From the IMG/VR virus record IMGVR_UViG_3300021233_000150, positions 1 to 25,496 of that record: a stretch of 25,496 nt of DNA. The stretch is one strand, 5' to 3'. The notes beneath the pieces were generated by a model, which did not search any database, was not told where the DNA came from, and saw nothing but the letters and a program-made list of their open reading frames with translations. This DNA comes from a virus. Within the stretch, counting starts at the first letter, position 1. Every line of letters starts with the position of its first letter. This document shows positions 3,008 through 19,786 of this stretch, piece after piece. The translations under genes and the position numbers were made by a program.

Positions 3008-4525
3008 GTGGCAGTTACAACAGTTATTCCTGATGCAACCGCAACTGGTGCAGCAAACTTTACTTTAACTGGTGCTCCATCACTTAATGCTGCCCTTGCA
3101 GACGGCTCAGATGCTACTTATGCACAAAAACTCAATACAATCACTGGAAGCGCATCAGCCCTTTTAGATTTTGGAACTTTAACTGTTCTTGCAACACAGC
3201 AGATTAAGCGAGTTCGAATTCGTGCTCGTGTCTCTACTCCAACGACTAGTGGTAAGGTAAATATCTATCTTGGTGCTCGCGTAAGCAATGTTAATTATTT
3301 CCATTCAGCCTTAGCCATTCGTGGTCAATATACGAGCGCTACAACTTTCACTGGACCTTGGCAGACATCATCTCCTGATGGAACAAGTTGGAGTCAAGCC
3401 GATATCAATGGTCTTCGTGCGAAGATTACTGAATATTCCGATACAACTGACCGTGCAACTTTTTATGAACTTTATATTGATGTTGATTTAGTAACTCAAC
3501 CAACAGTTACAACAGTTACAGCACCTTCAGGAACTATTACAACAACCGCTTCTCCTGATATTACTTGGACTTATAGTGATACAGATAATGAGACGCAAAG
3601 TTATTATCAGATTAAAGTCTTCTCTGCTGCCCAATATGGTGCAGGTGGTTTTAGCCCAGCAACATCTACGGCAACATGGAACTCAGGTGAAATTGCTTCA
3701 TCCGATAACGCATCAATTGTTGGTTACTTATTGCCTAACGCCACATATCGTTGTTATATTCGTGCTGCTAAAACAGTTAACAATGCTCCATTTTGGAGTG
3801 ATTACACATACTCAAGTTTTGTTATTAACTGCACATCACCAACAACTCCAACTCTTGTAGCCTCGTGGAACTCTAGCCTTGGCTATGCAAGTTTTACAAT
3901 CACTGGAGCAGCGCTTCCTAGTGGTTACTCATCTCAATATTATGTAGTTGAACGAAGCGATGACGCTGGAATTACATATTCAACCATTCGAAATGGTTCA
4001 AATATCACGCCTGTTTCATATGTCGGAACTGCTACAGACTACGAGGCGCCTAGAACTTATACGGTTTACTATCGCGCTCGCGCTATTGGTATTACAACGG
4101 GCTCAGTTGAAATTCCATCAACCTATTCAACAGTTCAACAGGTATTAATTACTAATGACTCAACATGGTGGTTTAAGGTTCCAGCAAGTCCAACGCTCAA
4201 TGTTGGTTCTGTAAATGTATTGAATGGACTCAACATTACAGTTGAAGAGCCTAATACAATTTTTCGCCCGCTCGGAGATGATAGACCAATCGTTGTTGCT
4301 GGTACCTTACAAGGTAAAGATGGTCGTTACACAATTACGACTACAAATAACACACAGTTTAATTTGCTACTGCCTGTTATTAATTACCAAGGGACTTTAT
4401 TGGTTCAAGACCCTCTTGGAAATCAAAAATACATTCGCATTACTAAGCGTTCATGGACTGAATCAACTGTTGGAACTATCGTTCGACGTCTTATAGATAT
4501 TGATTATGTTGAGGTTAGTTCGTAA
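3008..4525 (+). CDS. Minor tail protein with fibronectin type III-like domains
   Basis: This 505-residue structural protein starts with GTG two bases after the tape measure stop. The N-terminal third is a beta-rich Ser/Thr/Ala region. From about residue 165 there are repeated FN3-like segments, with a PTVTTVTAPSG-type entry and Tyr/Trp-spaced strands such as TYTVYYRARAIG near 345-360. The last 120 residues are another beta domain (SWTESTVGTIVRRLIDIDY). Its position directly after the tape measure, and its TAATG overlap with the next tail gene, indicate a distal tail or tail-tip protein; FN3 domains in such proteins commonly contact cell-surface carbohydrate. The exact role (distal tail or hub-associated) is inferred from order. 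Confidence 0.75.
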   Translation: MAVTTVIPDATATGAANFTLTGAPSLNAALADGSDATYAQKLNTITGSASALLDFGTLTVLATQQIKRVRIRARVSTPTTSGKVNIYLGARVSNVNYFHSALAIRGQYTSATTFTGPWQTSSPDGTSWSQADINGLRAKITEYSDTTDRATFYELYIDVDLVTQPTVTTVTAPSGTITTTASPDITWTYSDTDNETQSYYQIKVFSAAQYGAGGFSPATSTATWNSGEIASSDNASIVGYLLPNATYRCYIRAAKTVNNAPFWSDYTYSSFVINCTSPTTPTLVASWNSSLGYASFTITGAALPSGYSSQYYVVERSDDAGITYSTIRNGSNITPVSYVGTATDYEAPRTYTVYYRARAIGITTGSVEIPSTYSTVQQVLITNDSTWWFKVPASPTLNVGSVNVLNGLNITVEEPNTIFRPLGDDRPIVVAGTLQGKDGRYTITTTNNTQFNLLLPVINYQGTLLVQDPLGNQKYIRITKRSWTESTVGTIVRRLIDIDYVEVSS

Positions 4526-10653: not shown

Positions 10654-10868
10654 ATTGGGAATTTTATTTCACAACAGTACTAACAGTATTTACTCTTGCT
10701 GTAATTAGTTTAATTGTGTTTCCAGTTTACGCTGGAATCTACATGAAAATTAATGAAAAGCGGAGAATAGAATCAATTGAGTTTATTAAGGGTATGCAGG
10801 AAATACAAAAAGAAGCAAAAATAGACGATGCAATCGAGCGCATATTTGAGAACGGGGTTAACGAATGA
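10650..10868 (+). CDS. Small single-pass membrane protein
   Basis: This 72-residue protein starts with TTG overlapping the RusA-like stop, with GGGAG at a suitable distance. One strong hydrophobic segment (about 6-32: FTTVLTVFTLAVISLIVFPVYAGIY) is followed by a charged cytoplasmic helix (33-70). Its end overlaps the next start (ATGA). The family is unknown; a membrane-tethered accessory role is all that can be said. Confidence 0.7.
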   Translation: MNWEFYFTTVLTVFTLAVISLIVFPVYAGIYMKINEKRRIESIEFIKGMQEIQKEAKIDDAIERIFENGVNE

Positions 10869-11170
10869 CTACAACAATGTTAGAGGCAGCAGAGTTAGAC
10901 AGTCGCGGATTGACTGACCTAAGAACCATTAATGATGCGATTCGTACTCATCAAAGTCAGGTAACTGATTTACTCAAGCGCCGTAAGACTTTGATTCTTC
11001 GTCTTCGTAAACAACGCATTACCTACCGTGAGATTGCACAGACCATGGGAGTATCAGAGCAGTTGATTTACAAAATCATCAAGGACGATATCGACCGTAC
11101 CCCGCAATATGACGAGAACGGAAAATTAGTTCGCTACCGTGGACGTCCACCTAAGCCAGCAGCAGAGTAA
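10865..11170 (+). CDS. Small helix-turn-helix DNA-binding protein
   Basis: This 101-residue protein has an N-terminal coiled helix (15-53, INDAIRTHQSQVTDLLKRRK) followed by a sigma-70 region-4-like helix-turn-helix (54-77: ITYREIAQTMGVSEQLIYKIIK). It ends in a basic tail with an AT-hook-like RGRPPKP motif (93-99). It is coupled by ATGA and TAATG overlaps to its neighbours and sits directly before the ParB-like gene. It is probably a DNA-binding regulator or a partner of the ParB-like protein. It is one candidate for the repressor acting on the repeated operator-like sites in this window, but nothing links them directly. Confidence 0.75.
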   Translation: MTTTMLEAAELDSRGLTDLRTINDAIRTHQSQVTDLLKRRKTLILRLRKQRITYREIAQTMGVSEQLIYKIIKDDIDRTPQYDENGKLVRYRGRPPKPAAE

Positions 11171-12360
11171 TGAAAGCCAATATCCGAGTTCAAGATGTTT
11201 CCTCGGTGGCGATTTCATCACTTGAGGCATATCCAACGAATCCGCGCCGTGGAGACATTGAGGCTATCGCGCAGTCGCTGAAGGCTCATGGTCAGTATCG
11301 ACCAATCGTGGTCCAAAAGGGAACCAACTTCATCCTTGCAGGTAATCACACCTACAAGGCTGCCAAAAAACTTGGCTGGAAGAAAATCAAGGTTACCTAC
11401 ATTGAGGCAGACGAGAAGACAGCGCGAAAGATAGTTCTCGCAGATAATCGTCTGACTGATATCGCTGGATACGACGAGCCGATGCTCAAGAGCCTATTAA
11501 GCGCACTGCCTGACTTGGATGGAACAGGATTTACTCAAGCCGATGTTGAGATGCTCGACAGACTTATGGGCGGAGACGAGAAGAGTTCGATTTCCGATTC
11601 TAAGCCTTTACCTAGTGAGCCGAAGGTAAAGATAGGGGCATGGGCATTTATTATCGAGAGCGAGGCTTACAAGGCTTGGAAAGAGCAACTCTACAGTGAG
11701 GCTCCGACAAAACAGAAAGCAATCAAAGCCATCAAGGAAAGACTAGGTTTCCCTGAGCGAAAGCCAGTGGAGAAAGAACCCGTCACAGAGCGTTCTGAGG
11801 TCAACTCAGGCGATGTTGAGACGGTAAGCACTAAAGACATTCAGCCTCATCCGCTGAACCCGCGAGAAGGTGATATTGGGGCGATAATCGAAAGTTTGTC
11901 GCACATGGGGCAATACCGTCCAATCGTGGTCAACAAACAAACAAAGCACATTCTCTCGGGTAACCACACTTATGCAGCAGCCGTCCAATTAGGGTGGGAA
12001 AAGGTTGCTGTTCACTGGGTGGACGTCGATAATGAGGAGGAGTTAAAAATCCTTATCGTTGATAATCGCACGTCTGATTTAGCAAGTTACGATTCGGGGG
12101 AGTTGAACAAACTGCTAACTTCAGTGTCATATGAAGGGACAGGGTTTACCCGAGAGGATGTTGCAGATATCTTGGCTGGAGGAAAGTCCAAGCCTGGGCA
12201 TCAACCGATAGGTCGCTCAATAATCAAAGTGGGCGAGCATTCGATGAGAGTTCACACGGAAGACCTTAACGACTGGGCTAACACAATCTACGGATGGCGC
12301 GATGTCGTTGAGTTGCTGGGAATGCCAATGGAAGCATGTTCACTTGAGGAGGATGAATGA
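11170..12360 (+). CDS. Internally duplicated ParB-like nuclease-domain protein
   Basis: This 396-residue protein is built from two copies of the same roughly 200-residue unit. Unit one has the ParB/Srx-like domain at about 13-133: YPTNPRRGDIEAIAQSL, HGQYRPIVV, ILAGNHTYKAAKKLGW, VLADNRLTDIAGYD, GTGFTQADVEML. Unit two repeats it at about 217-337: HPLNPREGDIGAIIESL, MGQYRPIVV, ILSGNHTYAAAVQLGW, IVDNRTSDLASYD, GTGFTREDVADIL. Each is followed by a K(I/V)G-type module (153-195 and 352-386). ParB-like domains bind DNA and may hydrolyse CTP or cut DNA; phage versions lie near terminase genes, as here. No partner ParA is visible. It overlaps the genes on both sides. Confidence 0.85.
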   Translation: MKANIRVQDVSSVAISSLEAYPTNPRRGDIEAIAQSLKAHGQYRPIVVQKGTNFILAGNHTYKAAKKLGWKKIKVTYIEADEKTARKIVLADNRLTDIAGYDEPMLKSLLSALPDLDGTGFTQADVEMLDRLMGGDEKSSISDSKPLPSEPKVKIGAWAFIIESEAYKAWKEQLYSEAPTKQKAIKAIKERLGFPERKPVEKEPVTERSEVNSGDVETVSTKDIQPHPLNPREGDIGAIIESLSHMGQYRPIVVNKQTKHILSGNHTYAAAVQLGWEKVAVHWVDVDNEEELKILIVDNRTSDLASYDSGELNKLLTSVSYEGTGFTREDVADILAGGKSKPGHQPIGRSIIKVGEHSMRVHTEDLNDWANTIYGWRDVVELLGMPMEACSLEEDE

Positions 12361-16392: not shown

Positions 16393-16423
16393 CCAGTATA
16401 TCATACTGGGGTTAAATATTCAC
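16393..16423 (-). promoter_or_regulatory. Repeated promoter/operator cassette, copy A
   Basis: On the leftward strand there is a -35-like GTGAAT (16418-16423), a 17-base spacer with TTAACCCCAGTA, and a -10 of TATACT (16395-16400). The -10 is inside a perfect dyad, CCAGTAT-ATC-ATACTGG (16393-16409). The stop codon of the 33-residue gene (16412-16414) lies in the spacer. An AGAGAGG ribosome-binding site follows. Confidence 0.75.
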
Positions 16424-16699: not shown

Positions 16700-16730
16700 C
16701 CAGTATACACTACTGGGGTTAGATATTCAA
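16700..16730 (-). promoter_or_regulatory. Repeated promoter/operator cassette, copy B
   Basis: On the leftward strand the -35 TTGAAT (16725-16730) and -10 TATACT (16702-16707) are 17 bases apart. The -10 lies in the dyad CCAGTA-N5-TACTGG (16700-16716). The -35 sits in the loop of a second inverted repeat, TTAGAT...ATCTAA (16719-16736). A TGTAA leader and GAGAGAGG follow. It drives the leftward small-gene block. Confidence 0.8.
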
Positions 16731-16758: not shown

Positions 16759-16793
16759 ATTCGAACAAATGTTCGAGGCGCTACACTTAGCAC
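16759..16793 (+). promoter_or_regulatory. LexA-box promoter without a leader
   Basis: TCGAACAAATGTTCGA at 16761-16776 is a perfect 7-2-7 dyad that matches the actinobacterial SOS box TCGAAC-N4-GTTCGA. A -10 of TACACT (16782-16787) is followed by six bases and then the ATG at 16794, which is where transcription should begin, so the message would be leaderless. The SOS box covers the -35 region, so bound LexA would block the promoter. Confidence 0.75.
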
Positions 16794-17213
16794 ATGTCCC
16801 TTACACCAAACGTATCCGCCTTATTGAAGGCTTCATGCCCGACTGCGACGCAGGATGTAGGGACTAACCTCAAGAACCGCAAGAAAGCCATTGATACGGC
16901 TTCCTACGGTCCATTAAACCCATCTGAGTCCAATACCGACTACTGGCAAAAACTTGCCGATGAGTGGAACGTCGGAGTGATTCAGGCTAAAAAGCAGCGA
17001 TGCGGAAATTGCGCTGCCTTCATCCAAACCTCAGCCATGAAAGAGTGCATCACTGGAGGATTAGCCCAAGGCGATTCTCAAGAGGATGCGTGGGCTGTCG
17101 ATGCAGCGGGCGACCTTGGATATTGCGAGGCTTTCGATTTCAAGTGTGCCTCTCGCCGTACATGCCGTGCTTGGATTGTAGGCGGTCCGATTACGGACAA
17201 GAGCAAAAAGTAA
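16794..17213 (+). CDS. Cysteine-rich conserved phage protein under SOS-type control
   Basis: This 139-residue protein has an ordered set of cysteines, C70-x2-C73-x11-C85-x25-C111-x6-C118-x5-C124, in RCGNCAAF, MKECITG, LGYCEAFDFKC and RRTCRAWIVGGPI. Similar Cys-rich domains occur in aquatic phages and look like metal or iron-sulfur sites. The function is not known to me. There is no Shine-Dalgarno sequence; the ATG coincides with the expected transcription start of the LexA-box promoter. It is the first gene of a five-gene rightward operon that includes a tail-fibre-like protein, so a virion-related or assembly role is possible. Confidence 0.7.
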   Translation: MSLTPNVSALLKASCPTATQDVGTNLKNRKKAIDTASYGPLNPSESNTDYWQKLADEWNVGVIQAKKQRCGNCAAFIQTSAMKECITGGLAQGDSQEDAWAVDAAGDLGYCEAFDFKCASRRTCRAWIVGGPITDKSKK

Positions 17214-17356
17214 TGCCTAAGAAAAAGGCTGGGGCTTTCAATCCAACACAAATTAAAGACGGCTGGATAGTTCGCATGAGCAAAGACGGACGCATCAAGG
17301 CGAAGTTAGACCCATATATCGTCAAGCACCCAAAGAAGGCGGAAAAGAATGGCTAA
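17213..17356 (+). CDS. 47-residue basic small protein
   Basis: The start overlaps the upstream stop (TAATG). The product is lysine-rich with a central strand pair (KDGWIVRMSKDGRIKAKLDPY) and a basic tail. It overlaps the next gene by eight bases. No family is recognised; the double coupling within the operon supports it as a real gene. Confidence 0.65.
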   Translation: MPKKKAGAFNPTQIKDGWIVRMSKDGRIKAKLDPYIVKHPKKAEKNG

Positions 17357-17531
17357 GATTATTCAAGTTGGTACAGAGTTGAAGGTAAGCAAGAGCGGTC
17401 GCTTCCGTCACGCTATCGTCACCGCTGTTACAAGCCAAACCAGCGTATCCGTATCAATTGGCAAGGGAACACCTTTTGCCGTCACTAAGGGAAACGGCAC
17501 GACAACTACACGCCCTAAGATTTGGAGTTAA
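17349..17531 (+). CDS. 60-residue beta-rich small protein
   Basis: The ATG lies inside the end of the preceding gene, behind GGCGGAAAAG. The product is Thr/Ser/Val-rich with alternating strands (VGTELKVSKSGRFRHAIVTAV, SQTSVSVSIGKGTPFAVTKG). It resembles a small barrel, but no family is recognised. It precedes the fibre-like gene by three bases. Confidence 0.6.
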   Translation: MAKIIQVGTELKVSKSGRFRHAIVTAVTSQTSVSVSIGKGTPFAVTKGNGTTTTRPKIWS

Positions 17532-17534
17532 TCC

Positions 17535-18089
17535 ATGGCAAACGCCAATCGCATATCAACGGGTGAAGTAATTGCTGGACGTTATATCTCGAAAACAGGA
17601 ATTACATTCGGAGATGGAACAATTCAAGACACAGCAGCGGGCGAAACTATTGTTCGCTACACACCAAACTTTACTGCAACAGGATTAACCTTCACTGGAA
17701 CAAATTCAACCCATCCAGCATATAACAGTTACTATGTCAAAGTTGGAAAAGTTGTTACTTTCAATATCAAGATTTTAATGGAAACAGTTACTAATTTTGG
17801 CACTGGTCAATTCAAAACAGAACTTCCTTTCCTGCCATTAACAGGAACGATTAATCATTTCCCTGCATGGGTATGGGTAGACCCAACACAGCCACCTGAT
17901 GAATTAAATGGGCATATTGTTATGGAAGCCGACCATTTGCCAAATACAACGACACTTGATTTGCATTGGTTGAAAGAAACAACAGCAAGCCCAAAACCTG
18001 TTATTGAAAGTACTCTTTCTCAAGGCAATCCAGTAACTTTGATATCGTCAAGCATAATTTCAATTAACGGCACTTATATCGCAAATTGA
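17535..18089 (+). CDS. Tail-fibre-like or virion surface protein
   Basis: This 184-residue protein starts behind TTGGAG. The N-terminal segment KTGITFGDGTIQDTAAG (20-36) is the short motif seen in many aquatic phage tail fibres and neck-collar proteins, where it precedes a receptor-binding domain. The rest is a beta-sandwich-like region rich in Thr, Pro and aromatics (YNSYYVKVGKVVTFNIKI; HFPAWVWVDPTQPP). It may be a fibre or an exchangeable adhesin. It lies far from the main tail genes, in the LexA-box operon, which is unusual for a structural gene. Confidence 0.65.
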   Translation: MANANRISTGEVIAGRYISKTGITFGDGTIQDTAAGETIVRYTPNFTATGLTFTGTNSTHPAYNSYYVKVGKVVTFNIKILMETVTNFGTGQFKTELPFLPLTGTINHFPAWVWVDPTQPPDELNGHIVMEADHLPNTTTLDLHWLKETTASPKPVIESTLSQGNPVTLISSSIISINGTYIAN

Positions 18090-18104
18090 TGGTACGGTAA
18101 AGAA

Positions 18105-18296
18105 ATGGTTGAAGCAGGAGTTCGAGCACCGTCTTTAGTTAATGCTTTATGCGATAGATGCAGCGCTCAAGCCTATGTAATCGGTGCTTTCGTTAGTGGA
18201 GATTTATATTTCTGCGGTCATCATGCAAGAGAAGCCAAGATGCAGATAGCCATGCAAGCGCTGAAGATTTATGACCCTGAAGGCGTCCTTCGTTAA
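18105..18296 (+). CDS. DUF7455-like zinc-binding protein
   Basis: This 63-residue protein has CDRCSAQAYV (C16, C19) and LYFCGHHAREA (C37, H39, H40), a compact zinc site typical of the DUF7455 family common in actinobacteria and their phages. Its function is unknown. It ends the rightward operon and overlaps the convergent protease gene by four bases. TACGGT followed by six bases and the ATG could be a third leaderless promoter, but GGTAAAG may equally serve as a weak ribosome-binding site. Confidence 0.75.
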   Translation: MVEAGVRAPSLVNALCDRCSAQAYVIGAFVSGDLYFCGHHAREAKMQIAMQALKIYDPEGVLR

Positions 18297-18853
18297 TCCT
18301 TAATAACGATATGAAACGGTGGAGCCGTATCTGAGTTGTAAGCGCTCGCAATTTCAAGAGCCTTGTTAGCAATCTTTCGTGCTTCGCTTCGAGTTGTCGT
18401 ATCGCCTTGCATAGAGGCTAAGGCTCCAAGGGCTATCGCTCCACCTGAGCCAAGAGCATAGACGCCACGAGAATCCTGTACCCATGAGTAGTCAGAGCCA
18501 ACTTCGTAAATCTTTCCTTTGTAAGCGATAAGAAATTCTGATTCATGGGATGACTGACCTTCAGTTGTCTTCTCGTATCCAGCATCGGAAAATGCCTTAC
18601 GCATTGCAGGGATTAAAAACGAAGTAATGAAATGTGCATCATTGTGTGCCACATAAGTCTTAGGCAATTTCAAACCCGCTTGCAAGATATTGATGGCTCG
18701 TAAATCTCCAGCACATGCAATTGTGAATTCTTCATGCTCGATAATCTTTGAGTGACCCTTAGCCAATTTATAGATTGTTGAGTCATCTGCAATACGAGTA
18801 TCTGCACCCAAGAGCGCCCAGTTGCGTCCTTGAATGCCGACCAGTGTTGTCAT
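18293..18853 (-). CDS. Proteasome beta/HslV-like Ntn hydrolase
   Basis: This 186-residue protein has a proteasome-type N-terminal nucleophile. After Met removal the chain begins TTLVGI, so Thr1 is free. D17 (GADTRI) falls at exactly the proteasome/HslV position, and the general-base lysine is near position 33-35 (KGHSKII). The C-terminal half has YALGSGGAIALGALAS and ARKIANKALEIASAY, matching the GSGG helix and IA--AL-IA segment of the family. It has no propeptide. The start ATG-ACA-ACA is fixed by the chemistry although there is no clear ribosome-binding site; it lies nine bases after the deacetylase-like gene. A role in modifying host or phage protein turnover is an inference. Confidence 0.85.
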   Translation of the reverse strand: MTTLVGIQGRNWALLGADTRIADDSTIYKLAKGHSKIIEHEEFTIACAGDLRAINILQAGLKLPKTYVAHNDAHFITSFLIPAMRKAFSDAGYEKTTEGQSSHESEFLIAYKGKIYEVGSDYSWVQDSRGVYALGSGGAIALGALASMQGDTTTRSEARKIANKALEIASAYNSDTAPPFHIVIKD

Positions 18854-18862
18854 GAGCCAAGG

Positions 18863-19786
18863 CTACATGAGTGCCACCTTTGAAGTTGGTAGCGCCATGA
18901 GACCGAGCGCAGATGCCACCCAAGCGTCAGGAGTTCCCGTATCAGGCTGATATCCACCCGCACCGCCTAAGAGGATTGGCGTATCAGGATAAGCCTCACG
19001 GACCATTCGCATCGCCTCGAAATATCCTTTAGTTGTATATTCGAGATTCGATAGCGGGTCATCCTTGAGACCATCGGCTCCAGCAGCAACGAAGATAATC
19101 GTTGGCTGAAATCCTCGGACTTCATCAAGGAAATTAATTGTTGCAACCTTGAGCGCTGCATCGCCACTTTTAGCAGCAAGCGGATAGTTGAATGCTTTGT
19201 TAAGCCAGTCGCTAGTTAATCCAGTCCCTGGAAAGAGTCCCCACTCATGAACAGAGTAGGTCAAAACATTCTTATCTTTGCGTAATAGTTCTTCAGTACC
19301 GTCGCCATGATGTGCATCGATATCAAAGATTGCTACGCGATATCCCCACTCGACCGCTCGCTTAGCAGCGATAGCAAAATCTGCAAATACACAGAATCCG
19401 CTGGCATAGTTACGCATTGCGTGATGCTTGGCTCCAGCAAAGTTAATCGCTAACTTTGTCTTTCCATCTACCAAGTAATCAAGGGCTGTCATAGTTCCGC
19501 CAACAAATAGTTTTGCTAGGTCGCCTAGGTCATGGCGCTGCCCGACCCATTCTCCTGACTCACCGCGAATCGTCACGTCAAAGACATATTCTTCATCGTG
19601 AACAAGATGCAAGTCATCAGTTGATGGATACTCAGGCGGAAGTTCCCAAAGATTAATCCCGCGCTTTTGTGATTCCAGTACTAAACGATTGCGAGCATGA
19701 AGGAAACGTCGCCCTTGCGTTGGATGTGTCTTATCGAAAATCCAGTTCGCATATTCAGGCGAATGAATCAAAATTGCGTCTTCCAT
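18863..19786 (-). CDS. Histone deacetylase-fold amidohydrolase (AcuC/acetylpolyamine-type)
   Basis: This 307-residue enzyme has the arginase/deacetylase fold with every key residue visible: the HH pair in FAGAKHHAM (H121, H122); zinc ligands in IFDIDAHHGDG (D157, H159) and AAGADGL (D238); and the transition-state tyrosine in GGAGGY (Y279). These enzymes remove acyl groups from lysine side chains, polyamines or acetoin-pathway substrates using zinc. The ribosome-binding site is AGAGAGGTATGAA. It is the first gene behind a palindrome-bearing promoter and is followed nine bases later by the proteasome-like gene. The substrate cannot be deduced. Confidence 0.9.
   Translation of the reverse strand: MEDAILIHSPEYANWIFDKTHPTQGRRFLHARNRLVLESQKRGINLWELPPEYPSTDDLHLVHDEEYVFDVTIRGESGEWVGQRHDLGDLAKLFVGGTMTALDYLVDGKTKLAINFAGAKHHAMRNYASGFCVFADFAIAAKRAVEWGYRVAIFDIDAHHGDGTEELLRKDKNVLTYSVHEWGLFPGTGLTSDWLNKAFNYPLAAKSGDAALKVATINFLDEVRGFQPTIIFVAAGADGLKDDPLSNLEYTTKGYFEAMRMVREAYPDTPILLGGAGGYQPDTGTPDAWVASALGLMALPTSKVALM

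Follow-up and report, generated by a model that had tools for sequence, protein, structure and literature searches.

The palindrome TCGAACAAATGTTCGA, located at positions 16761-16776 of the 25,496-base virus record analysed here (the window), is probably an operator for the LexA protein of an actinobacterial host, which, judging from the sequence, would repress a five-gene operon until the SOS response of the host sets in. The window has a GC content of ~44% and comes from a tailed phage with a large terminase similar to those of Arthrobacter phages of the Laroye/Salgado type (51-55% identity).

As the initial annotation had stated, the box matches the actinobacterial-type SOS palindrome (TCGAAC-N4-GTTCGA / CGAACRNNYGTTCG) perfectly, and it is the only perfect TCGAACN4GTTCGA match in the 25,496 bases, where chance alone would give 0.0014 such boxes according to the dinucleotide frequencies of the window. 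The single match with one mismatch, TGGAACTATCGTTCGA at 4471-4486, lies within the gene at 3008-4525. Downstream of TCGAACAAATGTTCGA follow GGCGC, the -10 element TACACT, TAGCAC and an ATG at 16794-16796, placing the -10 element 6 nt after the end of the core (16775) and 6 nt ahead of the start codon; this arrangement, too, is as first described. No purine run of Shine-Dalgarno type precedes the ATG at 16794, and the leftward neighbour genes have GAGAGAGG. The promoter would be leaderless, a reading taken from the fixed distance between the -10 element and the ATG.

Back to back with the box promoter stands a leftward promoter, one copy of a module that is repeated on the minus strand at 16414, 16721, 20731, 21117 and 21609. 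The module consists of a TTGAAT-like element, TAACCCCAGTA, TATACT and then GAGAGAGG ahead of an ATG, and it contains the part-palindromic CCAGTA/TACTGG.

Table 1. Promoter elements and operon genes in the window.
Feature	Positions	Strand	Details
LexA-like SOS box TCGAACAAATGTTCGA	16761-16776		core CGAACANNTGTTCG at 16762-16775
-10 element TACACT (TANNNT) of the putative rightward leaderless promoter	16782-16787	+	sequence reading; counterparts in relatives
Back-to-back leftward promoter	16702-16730	-	TTGAAT, 17 nt, TATACT; repeated promoter family
Operon gene 1, cysteine-rich protein, 139 aa	16794-17213	+	relatives' records annotated "high potential iron-sulfur protein"
Operon gene 2, conserved small basic protein, 47 aa	17213-17356	+	
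Operon gene 3, 60 aa	17349-17531	+	
Operon gene 4, possibly fibre-like (weak evidence), 184 aa	17535-18089	+	
Operon gene 5, DUF7455 zinc-ribbon-like protein, 63 aa	18105-18296	+	Pfam PF24254, E=4.5e-15

The five-gene operon proposed earlier is real: its genes lie on the same strand (16794-18296), overlap or nearly abut, and are followed by a convergent gene. It is a small operon, mostly of unknown function, and is separate from the genes for terminase and tail. Gene 1 found no match in Pfam or PHROG and no significant match in the PDB, and its AF2 model (pLDDT 49) was too poor for testing a high potential iron-sulfur protein (HiPIP) fold; its putative HiPIP identity thus comes from record annotation together with conserved cysteines. 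The fibre-like protein that had been assigned to the operon is weakly supported, as gene 4 has one PHROG match, of unknown function (E=0.004), and none in Pfam. In most relatives read, a DUF7455 gene sits near the operon end, and relatives' operons also hold genes for SNase-like, ferritin-like or 1004-1081-aa proteins; in L006 and L045, ferritin-like and SNase-like genes lie within the box operon, at 3726-4241 and 428-820 from the start of gene 1. On the minus strand of the window, a gene for a proteasome/HslV-like peptidase (18293-18853) adjoins one for a histone-deacetylase-family protein (18863-19786).

The initial annotation had made its reading depend on conservation of the box in related phages. 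We therefore read the sequence upstream of the ATG in 80 IMG/VR loci encoding gene-1 relatives; these and the window yield 65 distinct promoters. The core CGAACANNTGTTCG is exact in 54 of these, carries one mismatch in five and two mismatches in one, and is absent from five; with at most one mismatch allowed, the box is thus kept in 59/65. Identity between relatives is 99% in the box arms versus 35% in the 40 nt upstream, while the two central bases vary freely, with six forms seen among the 65 promoters. Single changes in relatives also affect the Y position, as in CGAACAGGCGTTCG. The loss of conservation that would have refuted the first reading was not seen: the box is strongly constrained and, on this comparison of sequences, is conserved by selection, yet it appears dispensable in some phages, since six of the 65 promoters lack it or have it in degraded form.

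All 59 box-bearing promoters have TANNNT directly downstream of the box (TACCCT, TACACT, TACGCT, TATCCT or TATTCT), and in 56 of them the -10 element ends 6 nt before the ATG. The gap between box and -10 element, by comparison, is 5, 2, 6, 1 or 4 nt. Fixed arms at a drifting distance from the -10 element are the behaviour of a repressor operator, and the variable gap combined with the fixed spacing from -10 to ATG suits an operator better than an activator site.

Further boxes with at most one mismatch occur in the records of 26 relatives, and we considered them as additional operators. This was rejected: the recurring ones lie inside coding sequence, and in the 20 stretches checked all extra boxes were coding, apart from the promoter site and one case with one mismatch in L094. 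The records checked therefore have one promoter box per phage. In three loci (L348, L381 and L398) the box promoter with its leaderless start drives DUF7455 directly, and its upstream sequence is near-identical to that of gene-1 promoters. No gene-1 homologue was found in these loci by tblastn, indicating that control by this promoter persists even where gene 1 is missing.

Because a plain search of IMG/VR for the box gave many coding matches, the whole architecture (box, TANNNT and a near-leaderless ATG) was used as the search pattern, and a palindrome of equal composition with permuted letters served as the control. Among the matches listed, 37 of 80 box loci lay outside long ORFs and had an ORF of 60 aa or more downstream, against none of 80 control loci; the box pattern ended in ATGS and the control in ATG, so that the comparison holds for these fractions and not for the totals. 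Most of the box loci belong to two further groups. The first comprises whiB genes of phages with 35-37% GC, in which the box core lies 2 nt ahead of TACAGT or a similar element. The second comprises genes for a protein with an HA domain and a sigma-70-region-4-like HTH, on contigs of 8-158 kb which, where read, also carry whiB and proteasome/HslV-like genes. In this HA/HTH group the box is present in 19/19 distinct promoters, 18 of them perfect, in flanks that are 34% identical. The genes controlled in the three groups are unrelated, and the host is the simplest factor that they would share; the recurrence of the same arrangement across at least three groups of phages suggests that they monitor the damage alarm of the host.

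No promoter-placed box was established in ten public phage records that are linked to these phages through terminase, WhiB, HDAC or HiPIP. Among individual matches, Rhodococcus phage ReqiDocB7 (GU580940) has a perfect CGAACATTTGTTCG box at 70117-70130, where 1.2 kb of sequence has no annotated genes. At least two LexA-like boxes per contig were seen in other IMG/VR contigs (L138, 12570-12621; L116, 5640-5675; L125, 8575-8612; L143, 3381 and 5717; L131, 13178-13230), several of them close together in apparently non-coding DNA and some near TTATCCACAGG. On the reverse strand of the 91-kb contig L368 (251-1351), a box, a -10-like element and a short leader precede a tyrosine-recombinase-like gene.

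The match to the actinobacterial SOS box claimed at the outset agrees with sites bound in vitro by actinobacterial LexA (PMC8607333, PMC9380542). Mycobacterium tuberculosis LexA binds the boxes of dnaE2, lexA, recA and Rv3074 with KD values of 1-4 nM, and the boxes of dnaE2 (TCGAACAATTGTTCGA) and recA (TCGAACAGGTGTTCGG) each adjoin a TANNNT element (PMC8607333), while the LexA motif of Streptomyces venezuelae is tCGAAC-N4-GNNCGa (PMC9380542). The M. tuberculosis recA sequence, CGAACAGGTGTTCG followed by GC and TACTGT (PMC8607333), equals the core of several of the phage sites.

WhiB is encoded in 14/21 HiPIP-type records, whereas Corynebacterium is the only one of 14 control genomes to encode it; together with the DUF7455 genes, this points to hosts among the Actinobacteria. 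We infer the LexA box of the host from other Actinobacteria. Isolated Planktophila phages have a GC content of ~45% (PMC10202952), and the similar value of the window would suggest Nanopelagicales-like hosts. A contig scan for a host or provirus returned only a phage-like contig filed under a Burkholderiales MAG (JAEMQF010000283.1, L103), which carries a relative of gene 1 and is apparently a phage contig that was binned wrongly.

We infer from these data that host LexA binds the box and represses the promoter, that SOS induction relieves the repression, and that the operon serves as a damage-timed gene set. LexA bound at the box would cover the -35/spacer region beside the -10 element and block RNA polymerase, keeping the leaderless five-gene operon off or low early in infection. 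RecA filaments, arising from damage already present in the host or on single-stranded DNA exposed by phage activity, would then trigger self-cleavage of LexA and thereby expression of the operon. Any benefit of SOS control to the phage is speculative.

A special case of this model, which does not exclude the general one, is that LexA maintains a lysogenic state or a plasmid-like carrier state, as for Bacillus thuringiensis phage GIL01, with the box as part of a true lysogeny switch. GIL01 indeed uses host LexA as repressor without a dedicated phage repressor (PMC6182141), and the window encodes a ParB_N-domain protein at 11170-12360. Nevertheless, we consider such a switch improbable: the box would control a small side operon away from the terminase and tail genes, there is one box per phage as opposed to the several sites of GIL01, and neither a tyrosine integrase nor a resolvase/serine recombinase gave a family match in the 21 first-group relatives, though carriage in a plasmid-like form may occur. 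In favour of host LexA as the binder, no Peptidase_S24 (LexA/CI) protein was found in the 22, 10 and 16 records searched (47/48 in the three groups). These absences of repressor and integrase are weak because the records are metagenomic and may be fragments.

It is more doubtful still that the box is bound by a DNA-binding protein of the phage, as repressor or activator, and resembles a LexA site through coincidence or mimicry. Candidates for such a protein are the HTH protein encoded at 10865-11170, for which all 21 relatives' records give weak HTH_3 matches at a single place, and a WhiB, given the frequency of that family in the same records. However, the HTH protein has no homologue in the 10 whiB-box phage records, the box is present in seven HiPIP-type records that give no WhiB match, and the motif matches that of actinobacterial LexA; the variable spacing between box and -10 element speaks further against an activator. 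That the box is merely a conserved promoter sequence (a -35 or extended -10 element), palindromic by chance and recognized by neither LexA nor another regulator, is very improbable, since, even though it overlaps the -35 region and many relatives have the extended -10 TGATACCCT, both arms of the palindrome are constrained around a free centre, the distance to the -10 element ranges over 5 nt, more than a -35 is likely to tolerate, and phages without the box retain the -10 element and ATG.

Control by host LexA through a single operator thus remains the preferred reading. Whether it extends to a convergent class of apparently non-integrating phages of aquatic Actinobacteria, in which host LexA, one operator and a leaderless promoter tie one regulatory or accessory operon to the damage state of the host, and in which at least three groups have adopted the SOS response, beyond classical lysogeny, to sense damage or to time infection, we regard as evenly balanced. 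Most known cases in which a phage exploits host LexA concern temperate phages of a small number of cultured bacteria. Here, a module of exact operator and leaderless promoter recurs in several actinophage groups in which integrase and LexA/CI-type repressor were not found, the presumed hosts being the abundant, sunlit, streamlined Actinobacteria of fresh and probably also marine waters. The DUF7455, WhiB, HA/HTH and cysteine-rich genes are candidates for functions that the phage ties to the damage state of the host, and the box sites are directly testable with purified LexA.

Direct control of a phage gene by host LexA occurs in CTXphi and coliphage 186, where phage functions are LexA-repressed. 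The targets there are antirepressor or lysogeny genes of integrated prophages, whereas an integrase and a LexA/CI-type repressor were not found here. The comparison with GIL01 and CTXphi drawn in the initial annotation was right in kind, though a lysogenic switch is not supported by the relatives, in which neither integrase nor such a repressor was found. LexA-repressed phage functions have also been discussed in general terms (PMC9437464). Among the known systems, GIL01 likewise places host LexA operators in phage promoters (P1/P3; dinBox1, dinBox1b, dinBox2 and dinBox3) and is repressed without a dedicated phage repressor. It differs in being a temperate tectivirus with several boxes at its main promoters, a LexA partner (gp7) and a LexA-like activator (gp6), as opposed to the one box at one leaderless side operon of tailed actinophages, with no such partner identified. 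The dnaE2 and recA SOS promoters of M. tuberculosis have the same core beside TANNNT, as in the recA arrangement given above (PMC8607333), but serve chromosomal repair genes and not phage genes. Lastly, the CtrA-controlled phages of Alphaproteobacteria, described under the term "lytic deferment" (PMC9437464), are alike in that unrelated phages have independently placed sites for a host regulator in their promoters; the regulator adopted by those phages is one of the cell cycle, whereas the one read here would respond to DNA damage.
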